Shown here: piece by piece, positions 28,364 through 56,273 of the stretch
Position numbering within the stretch: position 1 is the stretch's first letter
Layout of the letters: each line of letters opens with the position of its first letter
DNA from: Pseudomonas sp. SCA2728.1_7
GTDB lineage: Bacteria > Pseudomonadota > Gammaproteobacteria > Pseudomonadales > Pseudomonadaceae
Direction: 5' to 3'
Assembly (NCBI RefSeq): GCF_018138145.1
Contig: NZ_CP073104.1
Span: 2,046,001 to 2,110,000 of the forward strand
DNA length: 64,000 nt
Program-made: the position numbers and the translations under genes
The notes under the pieces: model-generated
What the model was told of the DNA's origin: nothing
The model's database searches: none
What the model saw: the letters and a program-made list of their open reading frames with translations, nothing else

Positions 28364-28408
28364 TTTCCGTCACTACTCCACCACAACAGCATAATTTACT
28401 AAACTCAT

Positions 28409-28819
28409 TTACCACGTCGCTTGATCTTCCAAACTTGCCTTACTCAAATCCGCGGCCCATTCAACCATGGCTAGCCGATATATATCTTCAAAAAAAACCC
28501 TTGAATTATCCATCTCATCCCAACCATCCGGAAATGATGAATAGGCTTCAGGGTCGTATTGGAAAAGTGATTGAAAGTCGTAGTCTTCTTCTAGCAACGC
28601 AAGCTTCAAACATTCTACAAGTAAGAATTTTTGCCGATACGAGCGCTTCATAGGCATGCAGTACTTTAAAATAAGCCTTTCCCTATCTACTGCAGCATTC
28701 GGATTATATTTTTCAAGCTCCTCACCCAAGGTTTCCTCCCGATCATAAACATCAAAACAGCACAAAAAATATGCGGGACTAGGTAGATATGGCTTCGACG
28801 TTTCAGGATCAATTAACAT
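28409..28819 (-). CDS. Cognate Rhs immunity protein 1
   Basis: A 136-aa protein (begins MLIDPETSKPYL) starting 3 bp after the Rhs stop codon, the expected place for the immunity partner. It is homologous to the 27660-28076 product ('FDVYDREETLGEELEKY', 'GWDEMDNSRVFFEDIY', 'ASLEDQATW'). It presumably binds and blocks the C-terminal toxin in the cytoplasm. The call depends on position and pairing; I do not recognise a named immunity family. Confidence 0.78.
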   Translation of the reverse strand: MLIDPETSKPYLPSPAYFLCCFDVYDREETLGEELEKYNPNAAVDRERLILKYCMPMKRSYRQKFLLVECLKLALLEEDYDFQSLFQYDPEAYSSFPDGWDEMDNSRVFFEDIYRLAMVEWAADLSKASLEDQATW

Positions 28820-28822
28820 AAA

Positions 28823-31800
28823 TCACTCAGTCGGATAAAGAGTAAATGGCACTTCTGTAATTGGGTCGAATTTCATTTCGAACCCACCCATATTGGTAAC
28901 TAATCTAGGATTTTCTTTATCCCTTCTATTTGGCTTGTAACCTTCCCCAGCGTCAGGAAGCCTCATCTTTACAACGTTGGCGCCCTGATTATCCTGGCCG
29001 GTGTAACGAGGAAGCCCGTGTTCAACCCTGGTTGTTGCGAGGACATAGGCTTCAAGCATTATTTCCCAACTGTAAAATCTTGAGCTCGGATTGCCTATAC
29101 CAGCATTTCGACCTCTTCTTTGTTGACCCGTGATAGGGTCCGTTCCATCAATAGCTCTTTGTTTAAATTTTTCATCTGTTAACTCGGGGTCATGCTTGCC
29201 AACCATATGCATCCCCTGACTGTTGTTTAGCCTCACAATCTCTCTCTTCGCAGCTTCACTCGCGCTTAATTTTGGCGTCGGCAGCGCTGGCTCACCTTCA
29301 TCTACCTTAGCCCCACCACCCCCACCCGGCACCTCACACCCAGGCTTATTCGGCGGCGGGCAGTTGGAACTCAACCCCAACGGATCCACCCACCCCGTCG
29401 GATTCGGCACGTACTGGTACTGATTCAGCCCACCGGCCAATTTGATCGGATCCGGCGTCAGATACCGCCCCAGCCTCGGGTCGTAGTACCGATGCCGGTT
29501 GTAATGCAGTCCACTTTCCCCGTCGAAGTATTGCCCCTGAAAGCGCAGCGGCTGGTTCAGGTAGTCGTCGCCGGCGAGGGTCAGCGCGGCGACTTTGCCG
29601 TAGGCGTCGTATTGCGCGGACCAGACGATGTCGCCGCTGTAGTCGGTGAGTTCCTGCGGGGTGCCGAGGTGGTCGAGTTGGTAGTAGAACGGGCAGGCTT
29701 TTTTCGGGCCTTTGCCGTCGAGCAGCGCGAGCGGGCGGAAGGTGCCGGGTTCGTAGACGTAGCTGCGGTATTCGCTTTCGCTGCTTTCGGCGACGAGGTG
29801 GTCGCCCTGCCAGAAGAATTCGGTGGTCTCGTCGCCGACGGTTTTGCTGATGCGTCGGCCGAAGGCGTCGTACTTGTAAGACGCGGTCTGACCATCGGGG
29901 CGGGTCAGGCCGATCAGGCGGTGTTGGCTGTCGTAGCGGTATTCGGTGACGAGAGTCTGCGCGCGGCCGCGGCGTTCGCGGATCAGGTTGCCGAAGGCGT
30001 CGTAGTCGTAGTGGCGGTCGCCCTGCATCAGCAGGCGGTTGCCCTTGATCTGGCTCGGGCCGGGACGGTCCTGCATCAGCAGGTTGCCGGCCGGGTCGTG
30101 GGCGAAGGATTCCGGCAGTTCGTCGCGTGAGTGACGTACGCGAATGAGGCGGTCGAGGGCGTCGTAGCCGTAGGTGCGTTGGCCGTGGCGGCTGTCGGCG
30201 ATGTGCGCGAGATTGCCGTTGGCGCTGTAGGCATAATCGCGGCGGTACAGCGAATCGCGCTGATGGCCTACGGCGTGGGCGAGTAATCGTCCCTGATCGT
30301 CGTAGGAGTATTCGCTGAGCAGCAGGCCCTGCTGACGTTGTTGTTCGCGACCGGACTTATAGATGTGACGGGTCAGCGGCGTGCCGTTGAGGTCGATGTC
30401 GGTCAGCGCGCCGCCCTTGGCGTGGCGGTAGTCGAGCACGCTGTTGTCCGGCAGACGCATGCGTTTGAGCTGGCCGCAGGCGTCGTAACGGTAACGCAGG
30501 GTGCCCCAGCCCTGATGTTCGGTGATCAGCCGGTCCTGACGGTCGTACTCGAAGGCCAGGGGATGTTGCTGGCCGTCATCAACACCGATCAGTCGGCCGA
30601 AACGGTCGTATTGATAAACAACCTTGAGGCCGTCGGGCAGGGTTTTGACCAGAAGACGTCCGGCCGCATCGCGCTCATACGCAGTGAGCAAACAAGAGCC
30701 GTCATCACCGAACTCGGCCTTCTCCAGCAGATGCCCGTTCAGGTCATAGGTGTACGCCGTGCGGCGGCCGTCAAAACCGCTTTCCTGACGAATCAGCCCG
30801 GTCGGCGTGTAGTCCAGCCGGTACTTTTCCCCGGATTCGTTTTCGATCTCGGTGAGCAATAACTGCGCATGGTCGTAGCGGTACTGCACCCGCGTGCCGT
30901 CGGGGTTGATCCGCCGCGAGACCAAGTGCAGGTCATCGTCGTATTCGTAGCGGGTGATGCGCCCGAGTTCATCGCGCTCGGCAGTGACCTGACCGTAGGC
31001 GCCATAGCTGTAGGCGCGAGTGCTACCGGTAGGAAATGTCGTCTGAATCAGTCGGCCAACGGCGTCCCAATGCTGACGAGTGACTGCACCGTGTTCGTCG
31101 GCGGTTGTGGTCCGCCGACCCAGTGCGTCGTAGGAAAAGCGCCGCACGCCGCCGTCGGGCAGGGTTTCCTCGGTCAACTGGCCGAGGCTGTTCCAGACCA
31201 AGCGATGCCGACTGCTGTCCGGGTAGCGGATCGACAGCAACTGCCCCCGGGTGTCGTAGTAGTAATGGGTGACCTGGCCATCGGGGTCGACCGCTTCGGT
31301 GACATCGCCCTCGGCATTGCGCCGGTAGATCCACACCGCCTCGCCGCGCGAACGCCGAAACAGGAAACCGTTGCGATACTCGTAGGACGTGGGCGCCTCA
31401 TCCGGCGGAATCAGCGCGATCAGCCGTCCGACCTCGTCGTAGCGGTATTCGGTGACGGCACCTAAAGCATCCTGCTCGGCGATCAAGCGTCCCGAGGAGT
31501 CATAAGCCTTGAGCTGTTCGCCACCGTCCGCCGAGACTTTACGCACCAGCCGCGCACGATCATCGTGGACGTAGGTCTCTTCGGTGCCATCGACGTAATG
31601 CACCGCGACACTGCCGTCGTCATTCCAGACGTAGCGCGTGTCCATCTGCGAAAACGAGGCCCAATGCCTGACACAGCGAGAAGCCTTGCCCGAGCGCTCC
31701 CACTCCCAGAAGAAACTCGCGCCACCGGCCAGTTGCCGCTGCAGAATCACGTGCGCGTCGTCGTAGTCGTAACGCTCGCTGTCACCGACGGCGTTGGTCG

Positions 31801-33580
31801 CTTCGATCAGGTGCTGATAGGCGTCGTAGCGATAACTGACCAGCGCTTGCTCGGTACTCCAAGCGCCGTCGCGAAACACCTGGTAATCCACACCCAGCAA
31901 CTGCGCCCGGTCATAGCGCAACAACAGCGAGCGCCCGGCGCCGTTATCCAGGCGCTGCACCCGGTCAGACCGATCGCGCTGCACCGTCAGACGATTGCCA
32001 TAGGCATCGCTGATCGCCGTCAGCCGTCCTGCGCGAAAGTGATAGAACCGCGCCGTTGCCCCGGCCAGCGCGAGGATCAGCTCTTCCGGCTCATCACCCA
32101 GAAAAATCGCCGCCCGCGACAGGCTGTTGTGAATCGCCGGCCGTTCAATGCTCGGCAACGGAAAGCGGGTACGCCGGTTTTCGTGATCGACCCAAACAAC
32201 CTCATCGGCGAAAAACTCCAGCCGATGCGCCAGCGAATGACTCCAGCCAAACCCCAGCCCGACATCGATCTCGGCGGCACTAGAGCGATACAACCGCGTG
32301 AACTCAAACGGCAACACGCCATCGAGCACCGCATCGGTGAGGGTCAGCAGTTCTTCGCCAGTGACCATCGACACCGGACAACCGTTGGTGCAGGTGCGCG
32401 GCACGCAATCGGCGCTGTCGCCGTTGGGGTTTTTCGCCGGATCCGGCGAGTCGTCGTGATGCTCGTCTTTCTTCAACAAGGTGTTGCGCTGCGCATTCCA
32501 GCGCAATTGCATCCGGCCCTTTTTCACCCCGGCGGCGATGCCGCGGGCGGCAACGGCTTTGTATTGATCGACGTATTTGATGAACCCTTCAACGATGCCG
32601 AACATCGCCTTCACCAAACGCTTCACCGCCGACAGCAACTGCACGGCGCGATCCGCCAGACGCAGCGTCAGATAAGCGATGCCTGCGCCACCACTGACGA
32701 ACGTCAAGACGACGCTGATCAGCACATCGATGAGCAACTGCACCATCATCATCGATGCCGCTTCAGCGGTTTTGCCGGCGATTTCACTGGGCGGCAGCAT
32801 CTCCAGCCAAAGGCTGGCCGTGCGCAGCAATAAACACAGTGCAGCTTCGTCACTGACCAGCAATTGAAGCTTTTCCATGACGTCGGGGGCGGTCGCCGCC
32901 AGCGCCATCAACTGCGTGGCGCCCTCACCCAGCCGCTCGGCGAACGCTCCAGGATCCTTGAGAATGTCCGACAGCAGGCCAATGCTGTCCCACACCCCCT
33001 CGATCGCCGCCCAGCTCCCGGCGAGCATGCCGTTGCCCGCCGCCGTCGCCACCGACTGCGACCACTGCGGTTTGAAACCCTGCCACTCACTGCGCAGCCA
33101 GCCATCCAGCTCAGCGGTCAGGCCGTCATAGGCTTTGAAAAGATCCTCGACCTGACTCTCAGTGACCTCGCTGTGCACCTGCACCCGGTAGAACTTGCCA
33201 GGTATTCCTTTGAACGAGCCCTTGCCTTGCGCATCAAGGGTGATGGGGGTGGTTTCACCACCATCCATGGCGATCACATCGACCACGATGTTGCCCAGCG
33301 CAATGTCGTATACCGATTCAAACTTGCTCTCGATCTCCATCACCCCGCCCTTCGGGCACTGGACGACGCCGGAGAAAAACTCGTTGTCGGTGCTGCTGAC
33401 GACAGTGCTATCGGAGCCGAAGCGAATGATCCGCTCCATACCCATCAGTGACGGCAGATCTGCGGCGTGGCTGACCTTGTCCGCCGCTCGACTGGCCCAA
33501 TGCCTGAGCTGTTCGCGGTAAATACTGAGGGTGGCGGGAAAGCTGTCGAGTGCTTGCTCGATGCGGGTGACGGCTTCCAT
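28823..33580 (-). CDS. Rhs polymorphic toxin (1585 aa), probable type VI-associated effector
   Basis: An Rhs-family toxin. Residues 1-260 form an N-terminal region; about 275-335 is hydrophobic ('QLLIDVLISVVLTFVSGGAG'), a possible target-membrane translocation segment. The Rhs shell begins near 'CTNGCPVSMVTGEELL' and continues through many YD repeats ('YRYDEVGRL', 'YEYDDDLHL') to the 'NPTGWVDPLGLS' cleavage-type motif ending at about residue 1404. The last 181 residues are the variable toxin, with 'HMVGKH', a downstream Arg and a terminal 'FTLYPTE', reminiscent of RNase A-like contact-dependent toxins. No PAAR domain or VgrG is nearby. The start codon lacks its own ribosome site and overlaps an out-of-frame leader (33580-33627), so the N-terminus may be frameshifted. 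Confidence 0.88.
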   Translation of the reverse strand: MEAVTRIEQALDSFPATLSIYREQLRHWASRAADKVSHAADLPSLMGMERIIRFGSDSTVVSSTDNEFFSGVVQCPKGGVMEIESKFESVYDIALGNIVVDVIAMDGGETTPITLDAQGKGSFKGIPGKFYRVQVHSEVTESQVEDLFKAYDGLTAELDGWLRSEWQGFKPQWSQSVATAAGNGMLAGSWAAIEGVWDSIGLLSDILKDPGAFAERLGEGATQLMALAATAPDVMEKLQLLVSDEAALCLLLRTASLWLEMLPPSEIAGKTAEAASMMMVQLLIDVLISVVLTFVSGGAGIAYLTLRLADRAVQLLSAVKRLVKAMFGIVEGFIKYVDQYKAVAARGIAAGVKKGRMQLRWNAQRNTLLKKDEHHDDSPDPAKNPNGDSADCVPRTCTNGCPVSMVTGEELLTLTDAVLDGVLPFEFTRLYRSSAAEIDVGLGFGWSHSLAHRLEFFADEVVWVDHENRRTRFPLPSIERPAIHNSLSRAAIFLGDEPEELILALAGATARFYHFRAGRLTAISDAYGNRLTVQRDRSDRVQRLDNGAGRSLLLRYDRAQLLGVDYQVFRDGAWSTEQALVSYRYDAYQHLIEATNAVGDSERYDYDDAHVILQRQLAGGASFFWEWERSGKASRCVRHWASFSQMDTRYVWNDDGSVAVHYVDGTEETYVHDDRARLVRKVSADGGEQLKAYDSSGRLIAEQDALGAVTEYRYDEVGRLIALIPPDEAPTSYEYRNGFLFRRSRGEAVWIYRRNAEGDVTEAVDPDGQVTHYYYDTRGQLLSIRYPDSSRHRLVWNSLGQLTEETLPDGGVRRFSYDALGRRTTTADEHGAVTRQHWDAVGRLIQTTFPTGSTRAYSYGAYGQVTAERDELGRITRYEYDDDLHLVSRRINPDGTRVQYRYDHAQLLLTEIENESGEKYRLDYTPTGLIRQESGFDGRRTAYTYDLNGHLLEKAEFGDDGSCLLTAYERDAAGRLLVKTLPDGLKVVYQYDRFGRLIGVDDGQQHPLAFEYDRQDRLITEHQGWGTLRYRYDACGQLKRMRLPDNSVLDYRHAKGGALTDIDLNGTPLTRHIYKSGREQQRQQGLLLSEYSYDDQGRLLAHAVGHQRDSLYRRDYAYSANGNLAHIADSRHGQRTYGYDALDRLIRVRHSRDELPESFAHDPAGNLLMQDRPGPSQIKGNRLLMQGDRHYDYDAFGNLIRERRGRAQTLVTEYRYDSQHRLIGLTRPDGQTASYKYDAFGRRISKTVGDETTEFFWQGDHLVAESSESEYRSYVYEPGTFRPLALLDGKGPKKACPFYYQLDHLGTPQELTDYSGDIVWSAQYDAYGKVAALTLAGDDYLNQPLRFQGQYFDGESGLHYNRHRYYDPRLGRYLTPDPIKLAGGLNQYQYVPNPTGWVDPLGLSSNCPPPNKPGCEVPGGGGGAKVDEGEPALPTPKLSASEAAKREIVRLNNSQGMHMVGKHDPELTDEKFKQRAIDGTDPITGQQRRGRNAGIGNPSSRFYSWEIMLEAYVLATTRVEHGLPRYTGQDNQGANVVKMRLPDAGEGYKPNRRDKENPRLVTNMGGFEMKFDPITEVPFTLYPTE

Positions 33581-43427: not shown

Positions 43428-44972
43428 TCACTCAAGCGCACAAGTGAGGCGAGTTTTTAGGATACTAGGCACAAATTCAGGGCCGCATGGCTTCAGCCTC
43501 ATTCCAGGCTTGAGATTTTTCCAAGGCAAGTCAGCGGGATCCGCCAACATTGGCCCAGGGGCCTTAGCCACTAATACCGCTCGTGCGATCCCTTGGAAGT
43601 CAGCCCGGAAATGCACTGAGCTTTTGTTGACCAAAATATCCATTGATTCTGGCTGCACACCCGCAATCCTGTAGAGGTTTCGCTCCAGCATCTGAGCTTT
43701 TGTAGAGCTCACTACGACAGTGATTTCGCCAATTCGCAGCGCCGCGACAGGGCCTAATTGAGCGATCATTCCATGCTTCATCGGGCCATCGTAGCGGCAT
43801 GCGCCATCTGAGAGTGATACGACCTCAAACAATCCGGTCAAGGCATCATCACCTTGCACTCCGCTTTTCCCTCCGAATGACAACTCCAGCTTGGCCCCCA
43901 CCCCTGCTTGGTGGGCTTGCATCGCAATATCCGGCTCGTACATCAGACCGATGGCTGCATTTTTTGCTCCTGCGCTTATCAGCGCACGCAACATCCCCGC
44001 TGTATTTGAATCAGCACCAGCCCCGGGATTGTCCTGAGTGTCAGCAATGACCACAGGCCCGTCCCCACCTCCAACGTCAAGAATACGCATAGCCTCCAGG
44101 ACTGCTTCCTCGGGCTCCATAAACGGAACCTGCCAGTGAGCTTCATTCATGAGCATCTCGGCATACAATGCCTCCACAGCGCTCGATGCTTGCCTACCAT
44201 ACCCCCAGATAACGGGCCCACATTCACAGAAGTCCGCTGCAGGAAAACCTGCCGCGAAGGAGACTGAATGCACCTGTCCTGACTCATAGTGTGCCACCCG
44301 CTCGTACATAGATTTCGCCGGATCAAGCAGCGTGCACATACTATTGATCGGAATCAGGAAAGGAAGGCGGCACACGGTCAAATCGCACTCAGCCTTGGAA
44401 AAAAGCTTTTCCAAAAGGTCAGCGCATCGCTCACCAGTTTCGGCCATATCAACGTGTGGATAGGTTCTGAATGCAACAAGCGCATTTGCGGACTCAAGCA
44501 TCTGTTCGGTGACGTTGGCATGGAGGTCTAGAGATGCAACGACCGGAATACAAGCGCCCACTACCTTGCGGATTCTGGCGAGAAGCTCCCCTTCCCCATC
44601 GTCGAAATGCTCAGTGACCATTGCGCCATGCAAATCTAGGTACACAGCATCAAATCCGCCGAGCGATACAGCCTCTAAGATTTCGTTTGCAATGCGCTCG
44701 AATGCATCCTCAGTGACATGAGCCGATGGGCTTGCTCCAGCCCACACTACGGGTATTACCGTCCAGCCTCGCTCCTCGGCGGACTTGATGAAACCTCCTG
44801 CAGGAATATTTACATCACGAAGCGCAAGAAACTCTTCACCGCGCGGTAACGCAGGGTGACCCTCTCCCCGCTCAAAATTCAGAAATGCAGCTTTAGAAGG
44901 CGCGAAGGTATTCGTCTCGTGTTGAAACCCGGCCACTAAAACTTTCTTAGGCTCAGCTGCACTAGTAGTCAT
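43428..44972 (-). CDS. M81-family metallopeptidase (MlrC-like)
   Basis: A 514-aa protein of the M81/microcystin LR degradation C family. Family motifs include 'GFQHETNTFAPSKA', 'LDLHGAMVTEHFDDGEGELL', 'SLDLHANVTEQML', 'TYPHVDMAETG' and 'IADTQDNPGAGADSNT', which supply the metal ligands. The ATG at 44972 follows GGAGG; the frame to 45044 is less likely. It is downstream of the MFS gene on the same strand. It probably cleaves or processes an imported small peptide or amide; true substrates of most M81 proteins are unknown. Confidence 0.87.
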   Translation of the reverse strand: MTTSAAEPKKVLVAGFQHETNTFAPSKAAFLNFERGEGHPALPRGEEFLALRDVNIPAGGFIKSAEERGWTVIPVVWAGASPSAHVTEDAFERIANEILEAVSLGGFDAVYLDLHGAMVTEHFDDGEGELLARIRKVVGACIPVVASLDLHANVTEQMLESANALVAFRTYPHVDMAETGERCADLLEKLFSKAECDLTVCRLPFLIPINSMCTLLDPAKSMYERVAHYESGQVHSVSFAAGFPAADFCECGPVIWGYGRQASSAVEALYAEMLMNEAHWQVPFMEPEEAVLEAMRILDVGGGDGPVVIADTQDNPGAGADSNTAGMLRALISAGAKNAAIGLMYEPDIAMQAHQAGVGAKLELSFGGKSGVQGDDALTGLFEVVSLSDGACRYDGPMKHGMIAQLGPVAALRIGEITVVVSSTKAQMLERNLYRIAGVQPESMDILVNKSSVHFRADFQGIARAVLVAKAPGPMLADPADLPWKNLKPGMRLKPCGPEFVPSILKTRLTCALE

Positions 44973-45082
44973 GTGACCTCCACAGATAAAATCTTTGAGC
45001 GGTATATACAATAAGGTGAAAGTAGCGATCGCATTGAGCGCCACCTTACTTACACCAAGAGTGGTGCGCTGCCACTAAGCAA

Positions 45083-46381
45083 TCACTTGCTTAGGGATGG
45101 GAGCTTAATCAGAGAGAGCAAAAGTGCTCCAACAGCTAACAGTCCGACCATCACGTAAAGCCCAGCATGAAGGCTTCCAGTCACTGAAGTTGCCCACCCT
45201 ATAATCGTCGGGCTGAAAAAGCCGCCCAACAAACCGATGGTATTAACCAGTGCGATTCCACCAGCCGCCACATCCCCTTTTAGGTATTTGGACGGGATAG
45301 ACCAGAATACTGTGTATGCTGCGTACATCATCATCGTCGCAACAATCATGAAGAGTACTGACGCGACGATGCTGCTAGATAAATAGGTCGCCACACCCAA
45401 GCAAATTGCCGCTACTACGGCAGGCACTGCGCTATGCCATCGCCGCTCTTGATGCTTATCGGAGCTTTTACCGACCAAGAACATGCTCGCGATCGCGCCC
45501 AAGTAAGGAATGCTGGTCAGCAGACCGATGTGCATGGTATTAGAGACACCATTTTCTTTCAAAATACTTGGCAGCCAGAAGTTGACAGTGTAGATACCAC
45601 AGATAAGACAGAAGTAGGCGCCTGCCATTACATAGATTCGTGGATCACCAAGTACGTGTTTAAATGAGTGATGCTTCGCCCCTGGCTGGCGAGTATGAGT
45701 TTCAAGCAAATCTTTCTCGCTTGGGGAAAGCCATTTGGCAGTATCGGGGCGATCAGCAAGTACATTCCAAACTACGAAGCCCAAGAATACGCAAGGAATA
45801 CCTTCATAGAAGAACATCCACTGCCACCCGCTGAGGCCCATCATTCCATCGCAAGCAGTCATCAGCAAAGCAGACAAAGGCCCTCCGAGTACGCCTGAAA
45901 TCGGGCCGGCCATGAGAACAAGTGCCAAGGCTCGTGCCATACGAGCCTCACCATACCAGTAGGTGAGATAGAAAATCATGCCAGGAGCAAAGCCTGCTTC
46001 GAAGACGCCAAGCAAAAAACGCAAGCAGTAGAACATTCCAATGCTGTTTACAAACATCATTGCCGCAGAGGTCAACCCCCACAGTATGAGTATTCGAGCA
46101 ATTGTTTTTCTTGCGCCAACTCTGGGTAACAGTAAATTGCTAGGAATCTCAAACAGTACGTAACCGATAAAAAATATTCCCGCCCCCAGACCGTAAACAG
46201 CATCCGAGATGGATAGATCAACTTGCATTTGAAGCTTAGCAAAACTAATATTTTGTCTGTCTAGGCATGCAAAGAAGTAGCAAGCCATCAAAAGAGGGAT
46301 GATTCGCCAGCTAACCTTACGGTAAAGCTGTTCAGAGGGTATATTGCCTACCGCTATTTTGGCATCGGAGAGAATTGTCAT
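45083..46381 (-). CDS. MFS transporter, anion:cation symporter family
   Basis: A 432-aa, 12-helix major-facilitator permease of the ACS (phthalate/tartrate/glucarate-type) family, with 'CLDRQNISFAKLQM' after helix 1 and 'ILWGLTSAAMMFVNSIGMFY' in helix 4. Such carriers import organic acids. It starts 166 bp from the divergent LysR gene and precedes the M81 peptidase, so the three form a regulated uptake-and-hydrolysis module. Confidence 0.87.
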   Translation of the reverse strand: MTILSDAKIAVGNIPSEQLYRKVSWRIIPLLMACYFFACLDRQNISFAKLQMQVDLSISDAVYGLGAGIFFIGYVLFEIPSNLLLPRVGARKTIARILILWGLTSAAMMFVNSIGMFYCLRFLLGVFEAGFAPGMIFYLTYWYGEARMARALALVLMAGPISGVLGGPLSALLMTACDGMMGLSGWQWMFFYEGIPCVFLGFVVWNVLADRPDTAKWLSPSEKDLLETHTRQPGAKHHSFKHVLGDPRIYVMAGAYFCLICGIYTVNFWLPSILKENGVSNTMHIGLLTSIPYLGAIASMFLVGKSSDKHQERRWHSAVPAVVAAICLGVATYLSSSIVASVLFMIVATMMMYAAYTVFWSIPSKYLKGDVAAGGIALVNTIGLLGGFFSPTIIGWATSVTGSLHAGLYVMVGLLAVGALLLSLIKLPSLSK

Positions 46382-46547
46382 GAAGCTATTCCCGTATGTT
46401 CTCCAGCAATGATCGACTGCCGGAAAATACTAATTGTTGTTGTGCCCGATCGTGCTCGGGATGCTTCCATCATGTTTCCCAATGCCCTTACCAGCAAGAG
46501 CAACTGCGAGCCGAGACCGTTGCCCAGAAGGCAACACGAGGTTGAAA

Positions 46548-47456
46548 ATGCGTGAGATCAATCAGCGACGTTTGCGTTATTTCTATGAAGTCCTGACACA
46601 GGGATCGATTCGTGGCGCAGCGGACAGCTTGAACACCGCAGCGTCCGTCATCACGCGGCAGATCAAGCTCCTGGAGAGTGAGGTCGGAGCAGCATTGTTC
46701 GAACGCGTGGCACGAGGTGTCGTTCCGACTGACGCGGCGCAGCACTTGCTGGAGTACTGGCAGGCCTGCCAAGGCGAGCAAGAGCAATTCGAGATGAAGA
46801 TCCAAGCATTGCAGGGTCTCGAGCACGGCGGTGTGAGAATCGCTGCGAGTGAGGGTTACATCGAGAGCCTTATAGGCGATGTGGTGAGTGATTTTTCTAC
46901 CGATTACCCACGCTTGGACGTGTGGGTCGATATTCTTCCCGTTAACAGCGTTGTGAGTGATGTAATCGATGGACGCGCTCATATCGGGCTTGCTTACAAT
47001 CCTCCGGCTCATCCCGACATCGAATATTGTGCAACCGCGCCGCGACCGTTATCAGTCGTTGTACATCCTACACATGAATTGGCCAGCCTCAACCGCCCAC
47101 TAAAGGCGAAAGACCTTGTCAATCACAGACTGGCTACAATGCCGTCTTCGTACGGCCTTCGGCAACTGGTTCAAATGTTGGAATATTCGGAAAATATAAA
47201 ATTGAAAACAGGACTCACCACAAACTCTTTGGCGGTACTTAAACAGTTCGTGAAGAAAAGTAATGAGTTCACGTTATTAGGTAAGTTTTCCGTTCAAACA
47301 GAGATATCTAATGGCGAACTCATCGCAATACCTATCGAAAATCACCTACTACAGTCTACAAAGGCGCGCATGATGGTGCGTCATGGCCGTCCTCTTACCG
47401 CTGCAGCTAACGAATTGAAGAAACGCATGATCGAACGCATGCGGATCTTCGCCTAG
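46548..47456 (+). CDS. LysR-type transcriptional regulator
   Basis: A 302-aa LTTR. The helix-turn-helix is at about residues 5-62 ('[19 protein letters not shown]', '[19 protein letters not shown]'), followed by the ligand-binding domain. The ATG at 46548 (MREINQRRL) gives the normal spacing to the HTH. It is divergent from the MFS-M81 pair, the standard arrangement for control of an adjacent catabolic operon. Confidence 0.9.
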
Positions 47457-47517: not shown

Positions 47518-47661
47518 TTAAAACTCTATCGGTGAAAGCTGATTGTTAAAATCATGGCGGCGTTTTACGTTGTAGAACATCTCAATGTAAACGAACATAT
47601 CGCTACGAGCATCTTTTCGCGTGCTATAGATTTTTCGCTTGATCCGTTCCCGCTTAAGAAG
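47518..47661 (-). pseudogene. IS3-family transposase C-terminal fragment
   Basis: The last 47 residues of an IS3-type OrfB ('LKRERIKRKIYSTRKDAR', 'FYNVKRRHDFNNQLSPIEF'), including the end of the DDE-domain signature. It is joined in frame to an IS66 fragment, so the rest of the transposase is gone. Confidence 0.8.
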
Positions 47662-47697
47662 CTGAAAAAAAAATGTTGGGTTCATGGAGCGCTTATG

Positions 47698-48030
47698 AAG
47701 AAAGGTCGCGCAGGCAACAGCACTTTCGGTTGGCCAGTTCACTTTGCCGGCGCCGCGCGGGTACTGGATTTCAACGCAGATATTTGATGATGCTGCGTGC
47801 GAATTTGCTACGGCCAGCTGCATGGGTAACTGAATGAATGCAGGTAGCAGCCCCGTGCTTTTCTGCACTTTCCTACGAATCCATTTGTGTACGAAGTTTG
47901 CGTTGAGGCTATGGCTGAGCGCGATGCTGGCAATTGAAGCTCCGGGCTCAACACACTCTTGAATGACCTGGGCTTTTAAGAACTTGGAGTAGAAACGGCG
48001 TTGTGGAATGCATGAAATACCCGCTTAAAA
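47698..48030 (-). pseudogene. IS66-family TnpA fragment
   Basis: About 110 residues of the IS66 accessory protein TnpA: 'KAQVIQECVEPGASIASIA' then 'SLNANFVHKWIRRKV' (helix-turn-helix) and the later 'VNWPTESAVACATFL'. There is no normal start codon, and the C-terminus runs into IS3 sequence. The other IS66 genes are missing. Confidence 0.78.
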
Positions 48031-48163: not shown

Positions 48164-49573
48164 TTACCCATTAATCGCTTCAGAGCCGACACTTAAGCTA
48201 GCGGACTTGCGCCGATTTCGAGAGTAAAGACCCGCTAAAAGCAAGAACCAAATTGGCATTATAGATAGAGCCTGAGCCGTATCTGGTTCAAGCGCTAATA
48301 AGATTAGGATGAAGACGAAGAACAACAGGCACAACCAACTCATGACAATTCCGCAGGGCATCTTAAAATCAGAGCTTTTGTGCAACTCAGGATTACGCTT
48401 ACGGTAGATGAGGTACGCAACTACGATCATAGACCATACAAAAATAAACAAGATCGCGGAAATTGTAGTAAGGATAGTGAATGCGGTCATCACTTCAGGG
48501 ATGATGAACAATAAGCCTAAACCGATGAGCATACACAGGCAGGAAAAAATCAAACCGAAGACAGGCACTGAAGACTTGGAAAGCTTCTGGAATAACTTTG
48601 CACCTCGCCCGTTAGCTGACAGACTAAAGAGCATACGGCTTGTGGCGAAAACACCGCTATTTGCCGCTGACATAGCTGACGTGATCACAACCAGATTTAT
48701 GATCCCAGCAGCTGCTGGAAGACCAGCAAGTATAAACAGCTGAACAAATGGACTTTTATCTGCGGCAATTTCCCCCCAGGACGAGACTGATATAATGCAA
48801 GTGAGAGAAAGCACATAGAAGAACAAGACTCGCGCGGGTACCGAGTTGATCGCACGAGGCAGGGTGACCTTCGGATTTTTTGTTTCTGCAGCAGTGGTTC
48901 CGATCAACTCAATACCAGCGAATGAAAATACTGCAATTTGAAAACCTGCAAAAAATCCAGTTATCCCATGAGGGAATACAGCACCTTCTTCTAACAAGTG
49001 AGAGAGCGATGCGGTAACACCGACGGGTGATACGAAAGATATACTGACCATGATAAAGCCGGTTACGATTAACGCACCGATTGCGACAACTTTAATCAGC
49101 GCAAACCAAAACTCCATTTCGCCAAAAAGTCGAACTGCAACCAAATTGATTGACAGTAGGACGGCTAATACACCGAGCGCTGGTATCCAGGTTGGGAGTT
49201 CAGGATACCAAAAGCGAAGGTAACCGCCGATAACGGTGCAGTCTGCAATAGCGACGACCACCCAGGTCAACCAATACGACCAACCAATAAAATAACCTGC
49301 CCATGGGCCAATGTAGTCGCTACAAAAATCAGTGAACGAGTTGTATTTTAGATTTGAGAGTAGCAACTCCCCCATAGCTCTCATCACAAAAAATAGAAAA
49401 AAACCGATAACCGTATACGTCAGTATGATCGAAGTCCCTGAAACACCAATAGTCTTTCCGGAACCCATAAACAGTCCTGTCCCGATAGCGCCGCCTATCG
49501 ATATTAACTGTATATGACGGTTGCTCAGCCCACGTCGAAGTTCGTCGCCACCTTCAATTTCTACAGTTTTCAT
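48164..49573 (-). CDS. CycA-like amino acid permease (APC family)
   Basis: A 469-aa, 12-helix amino acid:proton symporter very similar in pattern to E. coli CycA (D-Ser/D-Ala/Gly): 'NRHIQLISIGGAIGTGLFMG', 'FFVMRAMGELLLSNL', 'FFAGFQIAVFSFAGIELIG' and 'TTAAETKNPKVTLPRAINS'. It is the last gene of the minus-strand cluster after a 239-bp gap, and would import the amino acid used by the enzymes upstream. I infer L-homoserine or a relative; D-serine, glycine or threonine cannot be excluded. Confidence 0.88.
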   Translation of the reverse strand: MKTVEIEGGDELRRGLSNRHIQLISIGGAIGTGLFMGSGKTIGVSGTSIILTYTVIGFFLFFVMRAMGELLLSNLKYNSFTDFCSDYIGPWAGYFIGWSYWLTWVVVAIADCTVIGGYLRFWYPELPTWIPALGVLAVLLSINLVAVRLFGEMEFWFALIKVVAIGALIVTGFIMVSISFVSPVGVTASLSHLLEEGAVFPHGITGFFAGFQIAVFSFAGIELIGTTAAETKNPKVTLPRAINSVPARVLFFYVLSLTCIISVSSWGEIAADKSPFVQLFILAGLPAAAGIINLVVITSAMSAANSGVFATSRMLFSLSANGRGAKLFQKLSKSSVPVFGLIFSCLCMLIGLGLLFIIPEVMTAFTILTTISAILFIFVWSMIVVAYLIYRKRNPELHKSSDFKMPCGIVMSWLCLLFFVFILILLALEPDTAQALSIMPIWFLLLAGLYSRNRRKSASLSVGSEAING

Positions 49574-49812
49574 AGCTTCGCCTTACGATAGTTGTATTTG
49601 TTAGAATTCAGCTTGGCAGTCTTATGCTTTCTTGTGCCCAGACACATGAGTGCCGAGCACGACTCTAATCCGTGAGCTCCATGGCGCTTCAATATTTATA
49701 GCAATAACAACATCAAGAGAACCAACTGCTCCTTGGATCATAAAAAAAGCACTGGACGGGGTGACCAAACCATATCCAATGCTAAAGACCTAACCAGATT
49801 ATATTTACCCGC

Positions 49813-51225
49813 TCAATTAAGCTTATTTATACAAATCACCTTTGGTTGCGTCATATCTTCATATGCGAAGCGGACACCCTCTCGCCCTAAGCTCCCATAT
49901 TTGAAACCACCAAAAGGCATTGCATCAAATCGATAGTCGGATGAGTCGTTAATCATGATTCCACCCGCCTCAATTCGGCGAGCAGCGGACAAGGCTTTGT
50001 TCAGGTCGTTGGTGAAAATTCCTGCATGCAAACTGTAGTCTGGCTCATTTGCAAATGCGATGGCTTCATCTAAACCTGTAACAGGCTCCAAAACTACTAC
50101 CGGAGCAAAAACTTCGTTACACCACAGTAGCGAATTGTGACTTACATTTTCAAGCACTGTAGCAGCGTAACAGGCACCTTCCCGAAGATGTCCACACAAC
50201 AGTTTTGCACCCTGCTGTAAAGCTTCACCTACTACTTTTTCTGCGTTCATCGCGGCTTGAGCACTGATCATTGGGCCAACATCTGTACTCTCCAACGCTG
50301 GGTTGCCAACTACCAGTTTCGAAGATAACGCAACGAAACGTTCGCGAAACTCTTCATAAATGGTCTCCTGGATCAGCAACCTCTGTGCGCCAATGCAGTT
50401 TTGTCCAGCAGCCCAGAAGGCACCCGAGACGCATGATTCGACTGCTGCCTCAAGATCGCAATCCTCCAATACGATCACTGGCGCGTTACCGCCCAGATCC
50501 ATTGCTAGTTTCTTCAAACCGGCACCACGCGCAATGTGCTCGCCTGTTACGAAACCGCCAGTAAAAGAGATCATCCGAACCTCACGGGAGGCAACCAGTG
50601 CTTTCCCCAGTTCAGCGCCACCTGTTGCTACTGTGACCACCGATTGTGGCAGCCCGGCCTCAAACAAGTAATCCACCAACTTGATCGCAGATAATGGGGC
50701 AAGCTCAGACGGTTTTAGAATCACGGCATTCCCACCCGCGATTGCGGGGCCCAGCTTATGTGCGACCAGGTTCAGCGGATCGTTGTAGGGTGTAATTGCG
50801 ACAATCAATCCCAACGGTTCCCTGGAAAACCAGCCTTGACGGGATTCGGAACCTTCGTATGCGTCAAAAGGCAGCACCTCACCAGCGTTGCGCCTAGCCT
50901 CGTCAGCAGAGAGCCTGAGAGTGTTGACGCATCTTTTGACTTCTTTTTCTGCCTGTTTAACTGTCTTGCCAGCTTCTTGAGTAATCAACTTGGCAAACGA
51001 TTTTGCATCTCGCTCAATATTTTGCGCAGCCAGCTCAAGTATTTGCGAACGACGATAACGAGGCAGGGCTGCACAGATCTGCACGCCGATTCTGGCCTGT
51101 TCAAGAAGCATTTTTACGTCTGCTGCGTGAACCTCTTTTACTGTACCTATAATGCTTCCATCAAAAGGATTGAATACTTCAATTTGGTCACAGACATTTG
51201 CAATAGCAAGGTTTGAATTAGCCAT
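49813..51225 (-). CDS. Aldehyde dehydrogenase, candidate aspartate-semialdehyde oxidising enzyme
   Basis: A 470-aa NAD(P)-dependent aldehyde dehydrogenase. The catalytic Cys is in '[11 protein letters not shown]'; the cofactor loop is '[19 protein letters not shown]'. The usual general-base Glu in LELGG is Asp ('[12 protein letters not shown]'). It begins 12 bp after the homoserine dehydrogenase gene, so they are co-translated. DoeC of ectoine degradation is a known ALDH that oxidises aspartate 4-semialdehyde to aspartate, and the same step would complete a route from homoserine here. This is the non-phosphorylating type, unrelated to the biosynthetic Asd. Confidence 0.85.
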
Positions 51226-51237
51226 CTCTAGTCCTTC

Positions 51238-52278
51238 CTATTTCTTGTAAGCTGTATGAATGTTGATGATATCGGAAAGGAGTGCAAACGCTGTTTCGAT
51301 TCTTCCTGCGCCTGGCCCCGAGACAGTGACTGCACCCAAGAGCTCGGTATTGAACGAAATTGCGTTAGTGGCACCAGAAATTCCAGCTAGTGGATGTTCG
51401 CTGCTCAAAAGCTTCGGCTCAACGGTGCCAGAAACCGAGCCATCAGCGTTGCGTTTAGCAGAGCCAATAAGTTTCCAGTGCGAATTATTTTGACGTGCGT
51501 CATCAATATCGTTGGCAGTCAGACCGGAGATTCCGACGCAGCTAACGTCACTAATACTTAGTTTTGCACCAAGCAGTTCGTTCGCGAGAATTACCACCTT
51601 CAAACGAACATCGTAGCCTTCAACATCTGCCGTAGGATCCGCTTCGGCATATCCCAGTTTTTGGGCTTCAGCTACAGCTTCAGAAAATGCTAGCCCACTT
51701 TCCATACGCGTCAGAACGTAATTAGAGGTGCCGTTGAGAATGCCTTCGAAGCCTACGATTTCACTTCCAGCCAACGACTGCTTAGCGAGCCGAATGACAG
51801 GAGTACCGCTCATTACTGATCCTTCATACTCAAAGGCCATATTATTCTTAAGCGATAGCTCTTTGATTGTGGCAGCATGAATGGCGATTGGCCCTTTGTT
51901 AGTGGTTACGACATGTTTGCCACCCTCCAGTGCCCAGCGACAGAAGGTGGTCGCAGGCTCACCATCGATAGGGTTGGTAAAAGTCGCTTCCGCAATGATG
52001 TCTGCACCCGAATTTTTGATGACCGTTTCGTTAAACGCTTCGACGGTACCACCTGGGATTTGCGCTAGTGCTCCTTTAGTTGCTGGCAAGCTCACCAGCG
52101 CACCAGCGTCCAACCCGTCGCGATTGATTACAGAGCCGAGGAAAAGGTCAGTGACACCGACAATTTTCAGGGTAAAACCCAGACTCTCTTTCCAAGACGT
52201 ATTGCGCTCTGAAATGAGTTGAGCCAAAGCCCGGTTAACACCACCAAAACCTACCAGTGCTATTTTGTATTCCGTCAT
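51238..52278 (-). CDS. Homoserine dehydrogenase without ACT domain
   Basis: A 346-aa homoserine dehydrogenase interconverting homoserine and aspartate 4-semialdehyde. The nucleotide loop is 'VGFGGVNRAL'; 'TTNKGPIA' holds the catalytic Lys; 'EGSVMSGTPVI', 'LNGTSNYVLTRM' and 'AEADPTADVEGYDVRLK' are core substrate-binding motifs. The protein ends where the regulatory ACT domain of the usual ~435-aa Pseudomonas Hom would begin, so threonine feedback is unlikely. GGAG precedes the ATG at 52278. With the adjacent ALDH and permease, an oxidative (catabolic) direction is inferred. Confidence 0.88.
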   Translation of the reverse strand: MTEYKIALVGFGGVNRALAQLISERNTSWKESLGFTLKIVGVTDLFLGSVINRDGLDAGALVSLPATKGALAQIPGGTVEAFNETVIKNSGADIIAEATFTNPIDGEPATTFCRWALEGGKHVVTTNKGPIAIHAATIKELSLKNNMAFEYEGSVMSGTPVIRLAKQSLAGSEIVGFEGILNGTSNYVLTRMESGLAFSEAVAEAQKLGYAEADPTADVEGYDVRLKVVILANELLGAKLSISDVSCVGISGLTANDIDDARQNNSHWKLIGSAKRNADGSVSGTVEPKLLSSEHPLAGISGATNAISFNTELLGAVTVSGPGAGRIETAFALLSDIINIHTAYKK

Positions 52279-52449
52279 TTCTTGTTATCTCCGATCCGTT
52301 AGGTTAGCTATGGCCCCTAGCTTAGGACGGAGGTGCTGGCAGTAAAATATGCCGAAAAGCATTATTTTTTGAGCGTTTTGACTGTTCCGTCGCCAAAATG
52401 GCCAGCCGCAAAGAGCCAGATCCATCGGCTCTTTAGGGTATTCACATCC

Positions 52450-52887
52450 TTAGATAACGTTCAGCAGAACGAAAGAAGTTATTGTGTTTTCCACGCCTGG
52501 CATCGCAGAAATTTCGTTCCAAACTTTGTGTACGCGCTCTGGGCTGGAAGCACCGACACGTACCATCAAGTCATACTCACCACTCATGACTTCACACTGA
52601 AGGACTTCCGGCATTTTTCTCAATGCTTCCAGTACTTCTGTCCCACGCATGCGGTCATAGCGATAGACAAACATGACAGCGTTTATGAGTGAAGATGGTG
52701 TCTGCCCCTCCGGTCTACGTAAGGTATATCCTTGTATCGCGCCGTCGCGCTCCAGCCTTTCAATGCGTTGGCGTACAGCATTTCTCGATAGGTTAACTTT
52801 TATAGCAAGCTCTGCATGGGTAGCCCTGCCATTCAGAGTCAGCTCTGCGATTATGCGTTCATCGAGTGAGTCAAGAACTCGTTTCAC
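52450..52887 (-). CDS. Lrp/AsnC-family regulator
   Basis: A 145-aa feast/famine regulator. An N-terminal helix-turn-helix ('LDERIIAELTLNGRATHAEL', 'LSRNAVRQRIERLERDG') precedes a RAM ligand-binding domain ('MPEVLQCEVMSGEYDLMV'). The start codon is GTG at 52887. It lies inside the cluster between the threonine-synthase-like and homoserine dehydrogenase genes and probably senses the amino acid substrate. Confidence 0.9.
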   Translation of the reverse strand: MKRVLDSLDERIIAELTLNGRATHAELAIKVNLSRNAVRQRIERLERDGAIQGYTLRRPEGQTPSSLINAVMFVYRYDRMRGTEVLEALRKMPEVLQCEVMSGEYDLMVRVGASSPERVHKVWNEISAMPGVENTITSFVLLNVI

Positions 52888-52918
52888 TTATTCACCCGCT
52901 TATCTACTTTGTTATTTT

Positions 52919-54295
52919 TCAGATGCTGCTGAGCACTTGATTTATAGTGCCAACGTCGTCTGGGTTTATTCGATACAATCTTAGTGAGCAGCTACTCTGT
53001 ACAGGCGTTACCTTCGGTATAGGTACGATGCCAAGCTTAGCAAGTAGTATAGCCGACTTTATTGGTGAAACCTCCCCGAGAGTGACCATCGGAGCCACCA
53101 TGCTGCGTCTATAGAGTCTAGCGGCGAGCACCCCCGTCGCCGTGTGCGGGTCAATTATATAGCCAGTATCGTGATGCATGCTCTTTATCTCCGCTAAGGT
53201 TTCTTCATCGCTTACGGAGTAAGAGTCAATAATCATTCGTGCTTGCAGCCATAGCTTATTGTCTATGACCATTTCTCCGTTTTCCTCAAACTCCTCCATC
53301 AGCTTACTCACAGCAACGGAATCCTTACCATAGAGCTCCCATAGTAATCGTTCCAGATTTGAAAAAACCGAAAGATCCATTGCAGGAGATAAACTCCTAT
53401 CAGACTTGATTCTGGAATAATGATTTTTCAAAAACAATTGATGCAAAGCATCATTACGATTGGTAGCAACAATCATTTGAGTGATCGGCAACCCCATTTT
53501 CTGCGCAATGTACCCTGCATAAACTTCAGAAAAGCTTGATGCCGGAACACTGAACCCAATAGTTCTTTGCCCCCCACTGAGTTGAAGTGTGGCATAGAAG
53601 TAGAAAACCAACTGCGCCATGACATTAACCCAATTACTCGAATTAAAGCTAACTGCCGTGTAATTTGACTGCCAATTTCTAAACAGTTTCGAGACAATCA
53701 TTTGACAGTCATCAAAGCTCCCATTTACTGCGAAGCGATAAAGGTTAGGATGGTCTGACGCATGCAATCGCATAATCTGCTCATCTGGAGAACCCGATTC
53801 TGGAAAAAATGCAACAACAACCGAACTTTGACTATTCTTAAAAGCTTCAATGGCGGCAAGTCCAGTGTCTCCATTCGTCGCCCCTACAATCAGTGCCCGG
53901 CGCTTCCGTTTTGCAAGGAAGTACTCCACAAAACGGACTTGCAACTGGGCTGAAAAATCTTTCGAAGAGCGAGTCGGCCCGTGAAACAACTCAAGTACCC
54001 ATTCATTCCTATCGACCTGTTGTAAGGGCGCAATAGTGCGATGATCGAATTCACTATAAGCATCTTTAAGAAGCTGCTTTAGATCCTCTTCTGGGATCGT
54101 CTGACCAACGAATGGCTTTATAACTCGAAAAGCCAGTTCGTCATAGGTGAGCATCGACCAATTCGCTATCTCCTGAGCACTAAACTCCGGTGGAGCACTT
54201 GGCATATACAATCCACCATCCTCAGCGACTCCAGATAGTACAACCGTTTCAAAGTCAGCCTTGGTAGCAGAATTGCGGCTACTTACGTATTGCAT
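52919..54295 (-). CDS. Threonine-synthase-like PLP enzyme
   Basis: A 458-aa fold-type II PLP enzyme of the ThrC group. The PLP Lys is in 'ELFHGPTRSSKDFSAQLQ' (normally HGPT-x-x-x-KD), preceded by the ThrC N-terminal segment 'GVAEDGGLYMP'; 'VGATNGDTG' binds the cofactor phosphate. It would convert O-phosphohomoserine to threonine, but no homoserine kinase is encoded in the cluster, so it either uses the housekeeping kinase or acts on another four-carbon substrate. The ATG at 54295 has GGTGGAG six bases upstream. First gene of the cluster, AT-rich relative to the core genome. Confidence 0.85.
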   Translation of the reverse strand: MQYVSSRNSATKADFETVVLSGVAEDGGLYMPSAPPEFSAQEIANWSMLTYDELAFRVIKPFVGQTIPEEDLKQLLKDAYSEFDHRTIAPLQQVDRNEWVLELFHGPTRSSKDFSAQLQVRFVEYFLAKRKRRALIVGATNGDTGLAAIEAFKNSQSSVVVAFFPESGSPDEQIMRLHASDHPNLYRFAVNGSFDDCQMIVSKLFRNWQSNYTAVSFNSSNWVNVMAQLVFYFYATLQLSGGQRTIGFSVPASSFSEVYAGYIAQKMGLPITQMIVATNRNDALHQLFLKNHYSRIKSDRSLSPAMDLSVFSNLERLLWELYGKDSVAVSKLMEEFEENGEMVIDNKLWLQARMIIDSYSVSDEETLAEIKSMHHDTGYIIDPHTATGVLAARLYRRSMVAPMVTLGEVSPIKSAILLAKLGIVPIPKVTPVQSSCSLRLYRINPDDVGTINQVLSSI

Positions 54296-54760
54296 TATTA
54301 ACTCCACCTACTGTTTTTGAATGCTAACCTATCTGATTTTGGGCTTATCTTGAGGGAGCATTTCGTCCGCTTCGATCGCCTTAGCCGACCCGCTGCTAGT
54401 AGCTTACCCCAACGTTCCAAAGACTCACTACGATGCAGGGAAGATGCTGGACAGAAGCGATTCCTCCGCACTGTACCCTTTGGAACCTGGCGCTTGAATA
54501 CTAGATTAGGACGTGTCTCAAACTTAACAAATATAGCGCTTCGCTTTATTTTATGGTCGATCTGACCAATTTTGATCGATTTGACATAAAAAACTTCAAA
54601 TACTAGTGCAAATTGTAATTATCGGATTAGCTGTCTGATCCAATATATCTCATTTATCAGCACCAGCTCGTAAGCTTAGCCAGCTGGTCATGCTGGCAGC
54701 CATGTAATGAAAAAAATCCCTTGAACAGACTGTGTGAAAACGCACTGGAGACCAGCACAA
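54296..54760. other. AT-rich upstream region of the homoserine cluster
   Basis: No convincing gene. Sequence is notably AT-rich around 54570-54650 and is the likely site of the cluster promoter and Lrp binding. Open frames here lack ribosome sites and codon structure. Confidence 0.5.
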
Positions 54761-54830: not shown

Positions 54831-55560
54831 AGCGCCATCAATTGGCGGGCCCCGATTACACTAATTGCACGTTTTAGGTTGTAGGCATTCACTGCCAAGG
54901 CGATTTCCGCTCTCGCTCCCTCCAGTTGACGCAACAGGAAGCGAGAGTCGCCAAACACCCATTCAGGTTGCCGAAGGGGTGCTCAACGTTGGATCTTCGG
55001 TTGGCCATTATATGCGGCTGGGCCAGCACTATTGCTCCATTCGCTCAACGCTTCCTCATTGGCATGGTGTGAGACGTAGCTGCGCTGAGCGCCAGTGATT
55101 GAGATTTGAGTGGGCAGGTAGCACAGTCGTTGCATCTGCCTGTTAGATCCGATCGCCCTTGTCGCGCTGTTTGAGCTATCACCACTTGCACTGCGGTAAA
55201 ACCGGACGAAGGCCCGGCACGTCGCCTCAAAGGCGAGTTTATTGTTTTTACGAAAGTCGGCGATGTTCTTGACGTCGGGCTTAAGCCGGTTAATCAATCA
55301 CATCACTTCGATGTTGCGCATGCACTCGGCTTTGAGACGCTGCGATGAGCGAATCCGGCGAAACTAGCCGTAGAGGCAGAGTTTGAGCTGGTCGGCACGA
55401 TCATAAGAGGGGTGCCCCGTGCTTTTGGCCAGCGTTTTATCAAAGCCCAGTTGAACCAGATCCAACTTTGATGTGTAGATCGTTTGGCGTCTGCCGTGAA
55501 GCGGTGCTGGCTCAGCAGGTCATCCACGCCGATGAACGCCGGTGCAGATGCTGGCACCTG
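54831..55560 (-). pseudogene. IS1182-family transposase remnant
   Basis: Fragments in several frames follow the order of an IS1182 transposase: 'LVQLGFDKTLAKSTGHPSYD', 'DQLKLCLYG' then a stop, 'RIRSSQRLKAECMRNIEVM', 'LINRLKPDVKNIADFRKNN', and finally 'RSNVEHPFGNLN'. Several stops and frameshifts make it inactive. Confidence 0.75.
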
Positions 55561-55713
55561 GCAAGCAGAAAACGCTGAGAGCTTGTGTCTTTGCCTACTG
55601 CAACATGCCGCTCTCGGCGTTCAAAGCCGTGGTCTATGACTTCAGCCCCAGCCTTGCTGGTGAGCACGCGCCCAATTATATAGGCTTGTGGAACGGCAAG
55701 TTGGTGTGAGACG

Positions 55714-55878
55714 ACCATCGGGGCTCTACTTGCCAAGCTGCGAGAGTTGATCAAGACCAACAAAACAATACGGCAGGCTAACTTGATAGGTTTGCTCAAC
55801 CCGGTTCTACGAGGCTGGGCGAACTATCACAGTCATGTCGTCACCAAGAAGATCTTCAACCCTGGGGCTTGGGACTAG
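55714..55878 (+). pseudogene. Group II intron maturase C-terminal fragment
   Basis: About 54 residues ('LAKLRELIKTNKTIRQANLI', 'LLNPVLRGWANYHSHVV') match the end of the thumb/maturase region of LtrA-type proteins, where 'NP-x-x-RGWANYH' is diagnostic. Reverse-transcriptase motifs are absent, and a stop follows shortly after. Confidence 0.8.
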
Positions 55879-56110
55879 TAGCCGGCGCACTGATCGCACG
55901 ACAGGTCGCAAAGCGGCTGCCCAAGGTTCATTTTGGCTACCTCATCGCCTCCGGATACATGGGCTACTTGTTATGGACCCAGGGCTTGTCCAGCTCCATC
56001 GCCCTGGCTAACACCGATACCAACAGCCCTATTAACGTCATTTATCAACTGACCGGCATGACGTTCCCTTTCAGCCTCACGATTTTCCAGCCCTACAGCT
56101 GGATTTCCGC
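55869..56110 (+). pseudogene. Short-chain fatty acid transporter (AtoE) fragment
   Basis: About 75 residues matching the middle of AtoE-type permeases ('ARQVAKRLPKVHFGYLIA', 'QGLSSSIALANTDTNSPINV', 'MTFPFSLTIFQPYSW'). It is joined upstream to intron maturase sequence and ends in unrelated residues, so both gene ends are lost. Confidence 0.75.
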
Positions 56111-56273
56111 TGCTTCACGCATTGCGGAGTGTCTAAACATTATCACGGCGCCCACGCCCGAGCTAAAACCATGAGGCATGAACCAGCGCCTCGCCTGATA
56201 AGAAACCAGGAAGATTCGCAACGTTAGGTTACAATATCGGCTCCAGCCTGCCCCCCAGGGGCCGATATCACTG

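Follow-up and report, generated by a model that had tools for sequence, protein, structure and literature searches.

Why would a pseudomonad carry, apart from its core threonine genes, an intact set encoding a ThrC-like protein, an Lrp-type regulator, a homoserine dehydrogenase (Hom), an aldehyde dehydrogenase (ALDH) and a CycA-like permease? This set lies in a stretch of 64,000 nucleotides of Pseudomonas sp. SCA2728.1_7 (contig NZ_CP073104.1, positions 2,046,001 to 2,110,000; hereafter the window). All five open reading frames (ORFs) are intact and on the minus strand, where transcription runs from thrC-like through lrp, hom and aldh to the permease gene (Table 1). A preliminary description of the window had proposed that these genes allow import of homoserine and its conversion to aspartate, and the gene names it assigned agree with Pfam and NCBIfam. 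At a probability of roughly 0.7, we consider the locus to be a stand-alone L-homoserine catabolic module; it is a variant within a class of homoserine-disposal modules already known, and the proposed pathway is probably right. Gene content, intactness and family relations are given by the sequence itself, as are the spacing, the conserved site and the grouping with other Pseudomonas loci described below.

For substrate, direction, uptake, regulation and gene loss, we infer the following scheme. L-homoserine would enter the cell, probably via the CycA-like permease, and be oxidized by Hom to L-aspartate semialdehyde, which ALDH would convert to L-aspartate for central metabolism. The Lrp-type regulator, encoded just upstream, would probably control hom and aldh through a conserved site before hom. 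The ThrC-like protein, whose gene is spaced as a unit with lrp, is probably a degenerate paralogue that serves regulation and is not a threonine synthase. The module probably derives from a seven-gene Pseudomonas locus, here called type A, having lost its gamma-lyase, its permease and its LysR regulator. In type A loci the gamma-lyase, of the PRK08249 kind, would probably free homoserine from a larger amino acid.

A probable catabolic route from homoserine to aspartate

Homoserine is present in pea root exudate, and the homoserine dehydrogenase reaction is generally reversible. The window Hom scores 472.9 bits on PRK06270 (cut-off 373), keeps the motifs that we take to be catalytic and lacks an ACT domain, PF00742 being the only Pfam match. 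It is 67% identical over 343 amino acids to the enzyme of Rhizobium johnstonii plasmid pRL8. aldh starts 12 bp after hom, and its product is probably an aspartate-semialdehyde-oxidizing enzyme.

One alternative is that the accessory hom and thrC genes are biosynthetic spare copies that boost threonine and methionine, as their family names and the reversibility of homoserine dehydrogenases in general might suggest. However, a further hom (C1:2907344) lies near a thrC (C1:2905579) elsewhere in the 6.78 Mb genome, which also has thrB (C1:4086731), and the five-gene locus is therefore probably not the biosynthetic set. It also contains no kinase gene, its ALDH would drain the shared intermediate, its ThrC-like protein lacks the TGNFG loop and its relatives sit in catabolic loci. 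We regard this alternative as highly improbable.

The proposed route, with a catabolic Hom and ALDH and an Lrp beside them, is backed by comparison with rhizobial and canavanine-locus relatives. In R. johnstonii pRL8 (L062), hom and aldh are adjacent, and identity to the window proteins is 67% for Hom, 67% for ALDH and 53% for Lrp. The pRL8 region, as in R. leguminosarum 3841, differs from the window in having a homoserine-kinase-like gene in place of the thrC-like gene and in having ABC transporter genes, not an APC permease, nearby. According to a passage in PMC10228743, the dehydrogenase pRL80071, which we take to be the single dehydrogenase annotated in L062, is strongly induced in the pea rhizosphere, and the same passage places its orthologue in a family that is strongly unidirectional toward homoserine oxidation (PMC10228743, citing Liang et al., 2022). 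By its identity to the pRL8 enzyme and its lack of an ACT domain, the window Hom fits this oxidative family (pRL80071/A. nicotinovorans type), to which it is likened via the pRL8 sequence. The homoserine-catabolism cluster with a dehydrogenase that the preliminary description had mentioned for R. leguminosarum is in print as far as the cluster goes, tabulated as pRL80079-88 in a review (PMC8416774); the dehydrogenase pRL80071 is outside it, encoded close by.

When plasmids were searched with Hom by tblastn, 128 records matched, 46 of them at 60–80% identity, and the 40 matches listed were all from rhizobia and agrobacteria. In Rhizobium sp. CB3060 and M. huakuii pMHb, the hom-aldh pair lies inside loci with a gamma-lyase, an aspartate ammonia-lyase and a CtdA-like gene, a content that fits a route from homoserine through aspartate to fumarate.

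Canavanine use reportedly runs from homoserine through aspartate semialdehyde to aspartate. The canavanine operon of P. canavaninivorans and Rhizobium resembles the window locus in its Hom, ALDH and Lrp families and in its homoserine intermediate, and the Pseudomonas version also has a ThrC-like gene. Unlike that operon, the window locus lacks the canavanine-gamma-lyase, CtdA, SMR and ABC transporter genes. That the canavanine route makes homoserine is stated in a passage of PMC10018355. No CtdA (B3/4) gene is present directly before the window operon; a CtdA-like gene is located about 1.3 Mb away. Its product, a CtdA-like canavanyl-tRNA editing protein (L060:5342-6797; G000:C1, ~784 kb), is 58% identical to the rhizobial one. 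The gene adjoins an XRE-type regulator resembling the one beside ctdA in L192, in a genome without canavanine-gamma-lyase.

Putative homoserine modules in Pseudomonas genomes

How are such modules distributed? When genome contigs were scanned with Hom, 46 loci matched, of which 43 are in Pseudomonas. In a sample of 398 Pseudomonas genomes, Hom (E <= 1e-60) occurs in 72 genomes at 82 places, 80 of which were fetched with their surroundings, leaving aside the copy in the window itself and a fragment at a contig end in G272. Fifteen loci (L098-L112), called type B, have relatives of the canavanine-gamma-lyase (70–75%) and CtdA (56–61%) of Rhizobium sp. CB3060; their assignment follows the set of genes published for the canavanine locus, the P. 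canavaninivorans locus being known here by description only. The window Hom is 68–70% identical to their Hom proteins. Among the remaining 65 loci (L113-L177), all but L123, L143, L148 and L155 have the full seven type A genes (61 loci): PRK08249 gamma-lyase, MmuP-like permease (permB), LysR, thrC-like, lrp, hom and aldh (example, L003:4189-12472). Since the order thrC-like, lrp, hom, aldh recurs in dozens of Pseudomonas species, the arrangement in the window is more than chance.

The PRK08249 gamma-lyase (E <= 1e-120) is present in 67 of the 398 genomes, and 66 of these are among the 72 with Hom, G076 being the odd one; in G061, G129 and G376 (L155, L123 and L143) it is encoded outside the fetched stretch. 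Another five genomes (G133, G281, G285, G336 and G341) have type B only. Just one of the 72, that of the window, has Hom without either gamma-lyase, so that it would hold a stand-alone module drawn from the seven-gene family. Four of the seven type A genes are in the window, in the same order and with the same operator-like site. The first three are absent and a CycA-like permease gene follows aldh instead: the type A gamma-lyase could not be traced in the window, and the permB and LysR queries matched only unlike window genes (33% and 22%).

If type A loci dispose of homoserine, where does it come from? We know of no published function for the type A locus, whose gamma-lyase product is likely to be homoserine. 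S-methylmethionine is a lead only as the donor, permB reaching 668.1 bits against the MmuP model (cut-off 716); among the titles listed in the literature search, none deals with a locus of this kind. 2,4-Diaminobutyrate was suggested as donor by PRK08249-type genes beside ectoine-degradation genes but was not adopted; the sole paper found on this combination is, judging by its title, about something else. The genes in question are on a Priestia plasmid (L064:1537-11025), where a PRK08249-type gamma-lyase gene occurs with hom and aldh beside ectoine-degradation genes, and on a Klebsiella plasmid (L065:3777-7203), where such a gene is beside doeA and doeB. On those plasmids the enzyme may turn diaminobutyrate into homoserine.

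It is also possible that the window module finishes off homoserine freed inside the cell by an unlinked enzyme, either another gamma-lyase or one that hydrolyzes a conjugate, as probably happens in canavanine and type A loci. Of the 72 Hom-containing genomes, 71 have a gamma-lyase of either the PRK08249 or the canavanine kind, and this genome encodes two other proteins of the gamma-lyase family, 39–42% identical to PRK08249, in addition to the CtdA-like protein. However, a search of the genome for a close gamma-lyase found at best 42% identity to PRK08249 and 38% (then 36%) to the canavanine-gamma-lyase, with the same two genes, and aldh is followed, in the same orientation, by the permease gene. 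An internal source thus seems rather unlikely.

For the preferred reading, in which homoserine is imported, the CycA-like permease is the probable importer. It scores 706.7 bits on the CycA equivalog PRK11049, below the cut-off of 732. Its closest relatives in the 398 genomes are in G341 (71%) and G133 (70%), both of which have type B variants. In G133, the relative is convergent to, and about 55 bp from, the ThrC-like/lrp pair in the canavanine cluster. The neighbourhoods in G133 and G341 provide modest independent support for a link between permease and module.

Descent and selection

Two trees bear on the origin of the module. The ThrC-like tree has 44 rows, made up of one in three of the 82 type A rows and of all others, with core ThrC absent; in it, the window joins a subset of type A on the starred branch (96/90) and has a long tip of 0.46, the median end branch being 0.041. 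The Hom tree, with 54 rows, places the window among different type A rows (95/83). Since both trees place the window among type A, descent from a type A-like locus is favoured, with an exact sister that differs by tree. In comparison with P. akapageensis (L002), the four shared genes have nonsynonymous differences (pN) of 0.115–0.167 and synonymous differences (pS) of 0.79–0.93, and selection has therefore kept them.

Could the locus be a decaying type A remnant without present function? Three of seven genes are absent, the surroundings are AT-rich with an insertion sequence (IS) remnant, and the ThrC-like branch is long. Against this, all five ORFs are intact, pN is low while pS is saturated, and the operator-like site is kept, making decay very unlikely.

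Several observations weigh against the reading of the locus as a homoserine-catabolic module derived from type A. The exact five-gene set, which the preliminary description had proposed to look for in root-associated pseudomonads, was seen only in the window and in P. cichorii ICMP 3353 (L001), which matches the window over 20,948 bases at 99.967% DNA identity; what recurs elsewhere is the four-gene order. The host of the window itself very probably belongs to P. cichorii, and with these two cases from one species the five-gene set gains no support from recurrence. The window ALDH is below the cut-off in all 25 best of the 44 NCBIfam models matched. It has Asp at the position of what we take to be the general-base Glu (MDLGGN, the usual form presumably being LELGG(K/N)), as do 105 of 112 distinct relatives. 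The two trees give the window different sister groups, and the Hom tree as drawn does not unite type A in a single clade. Finally, the genome has a second relative of the permease (59% identical), and the permease relative in G341 is about 9 kb from the ThrC-like/lrp pair.

Proposed regulation of hom and aldh

How might the module be controlled? In the window, 31 bp separate the thrC-like gene from lrp, a spacing taken from the near-identical L001. This gap is 23 bp or less in 61 of 61 type A loci measured and in 14 of 14 pairs from type B loci (two of them type A-like). In the fetched type A and type B loci, respectively, the gap between hom and aldh is at most 19 bp in 64/64 and 15/15, and that between lrp and hom is at most 40 bp in 0/60 and 0/15. 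Thus, the thrC-like gene and lrp move as a pair, and a separate leader precedes hom-aldh.

Within this leader, 66 of 66 distinct type A sequences have a site with five or fewer mismatches from TGCCATATTCAACTGCC, a match reached in about 2.5% of base-composition shuffles; the window leader has four mismatches. With a matrix built without the window, on 35 distinct sites of type A, the window site, which matches the type A consensus AATTGCCATATTCAACTGCCATG, scores 24.7 bits, the maximum elsewhere in the 64 kb being 8.8. We infer that Lrp may bind this site, which could also be a promoter. In type B, two of 15 upstream regions fall below a shuffle fraction of 0.02, and others have, by eye, a half-site at a similar distance. 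The operator was not found in nine other upstream regions (eight rhizobial, one Leifsonia), with shuffle fractions of 0.18–0.82.

The ThrC-like protein

The preliminary description had made the ThrC-like enzyme a working side branch. Although the protein passes the TIGR00260 threonine synthase cut-off (178.9 bits; cut-off 167.1), this role was set aside because the TGNFG loop, which we take to bind the phosphate of pyridoxal phosphate (PLP), is lost in the window and in 85 type A-like relatives. Compared with the genome's own core ThrC, VPTGNFGDIFAGY is now VPASSFSEVYAGY: the window has ASSFS where the core enzyme keeps [ST]GNFG. The 82 distinct type A proteins have AASFA (45), AASSA (25) or TASFA (12), and three type A-like copies from type B loci have GASFA. 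The G-N and last G of the loop are thus kept in none of 86 distinct rows, window included, and every one of the 86 retains the Lys that presumably forms the Schiff base. Among solved structures, the five threonine synthases that matched all have both this Lys and [ST]GNFG. The type B ThrC-like proteins show the reverse: in 12 of 12, TGNFG is kept and Gln stands in place of the Lys. We conclude that the window protein is probably a degenerate threonine synthase paralogue.

Alternatively, it could be a PLP enzyme that is still active and catalyses a new reaction, with homoserine or homoserine phosphate as substrate, forming a real side branch; the conserved Lys and many other retained ThrC positions would be consistent with such an enzyme. 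However, the loop is replaced throughout, the window protein and all variants listed have Asn for the Ser of SGDTG, and the canavanine-operon counterpart lacks the Lys. We consider a new activity doubtful. A literature search, with most subscription papers outside it, gave no title on a Pseudomonas homoserine module of such make-up, nor, not searched under the word pseudoenzyme, one on a degenerate ThrC beside Lrp.

Degenerate threonine-branch genes beside lrp

Rhizobia have, directly ahead of lrp, a gene for a shortened homologue of homoserine kinase, scoring 122–171 bits in the four scanned (cut-offs 256 and 271). In all six copies aligned, HAD has become HGA, IDF has become INF and about 42 residues are missing; we take the lost Asp residues to be catalytic and metal-binding. 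A degenerate threonine-branch gene nearly always directly precedes lrp. What appear to be three separate losses there, those of the TGNFG loop, the Schiff-base Lys and the kinase Asp, are the striking part, and this pairing of broken enzymes with Lrp is the part worth following.

One tentative explanation is that retired threonine-branch enzymes, each broken differently, were repeatedly recruited as ligand-sensing partners of Lrp. The ThrC-like and kinase-like proteins would modulate Lrp through a bound ligand, homoserine or a related compound: the former active site would take up homoserine, or homoserine phosphate, and signal to Lrp to open hom-aldh. If true, the pairing would be a clear convergent conversion of enzyme to sensor. 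Several loci argue against the pairing. In L105, L107 and L108 (three of 15 type B), lrp precedes hom without a ThrC-like gene before it; a ThrC-like gene of the type A kind follows farther on in the cluster, next to another lrp, that of L108 being a 40-residue fragment. In Leifsonia (L041) and R. acidisoli (L199), Lrp is near hom with no such neighbour found; on M. huakuii pMHa (L200) a kinase fragment is amid IS elements with no Lrp found, and Priestia (L064) has neither Lrp nor a kinase-like or ThrC-like gene.

Many Pseudomonas proteins called threonine synthase (the ones so named among 120 relatives) may not be threonine synthases. Since homoserine comes both from pea root exudation and from canavanine, a compact module that plugs into varied upstream enzymes would explain the common exit route to aspartate in root bacteria.

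Surroundings of the module

The G+C content is 45–51% over 48–55 kb and about 56–63% in most other parts of the window, in line with the AT-rich island first described. Mobile-element debris had been placed on both sides. An IS3 remnant is indeed on one (Table 1). The other holds gene debris of partly tested mobile origin: ORF 55869-56174, a fragment of a short-chain fatty-acid transporter; ORF 54983-55297, without a Pfam match; and, near 55700-55870, a stretch resembling a group II intron maturase, recognized by eye only. In an empty-site search with the right flank, among the matches listed, none in another genome spans the whole 2.7 kb, and the insertion is therefore not mapped. A generic promoter/terminator scan and a repeat search gave nothing useful.

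Table 1. Features of the module and its border (window coordinates)
Feature	Position	Strand	Basis
thrC-like gene (458 aa)	52919..54307, ATG at 54295	-	Pfam, NCBIfam: Thr_synth_N + PALP
lrp, AsnC/Lrp-family regulator	52450..52887	-	Pfam, NCBIfam
Operator- or promoter-like site, ~76 bp 5′ of hom	52335..52357	-	Matrix from type A sites
hom, ACT-less homoserine dehydrogenase	51238..52278	-	Pfam: Homoserine_dh alone; NCBIfam PRK06270
aldh, Aldedh-family aldehyde dehydrogenase	49813..51225	-	Pfam
CycA-like APC-family amino acid permease, AA_permease	48164..49573	-	Pfam, NCBIfam
IS3 transposase remnant, integrase core fragment bordering module	47518..47868	-	PF13333

Adjoining the module, at 43428-47456, are genes for an M81 (MlrC-like) peptidase, an MFS transporter and a LysR regulator, likewise present in P. 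cichorii L001. Farther away, the region 27660-33580 holds the gene for an Rhs-repeat protein of 1585 aa and, 3′ of it, a low-G+C stretch (42–50%) that contains two small ORFs without a Pfam match, as in Rhs tip/immunity regions. A small ORF at 56274-56672 matches QslA, the LasR antiactivator (E 3.3e-09).

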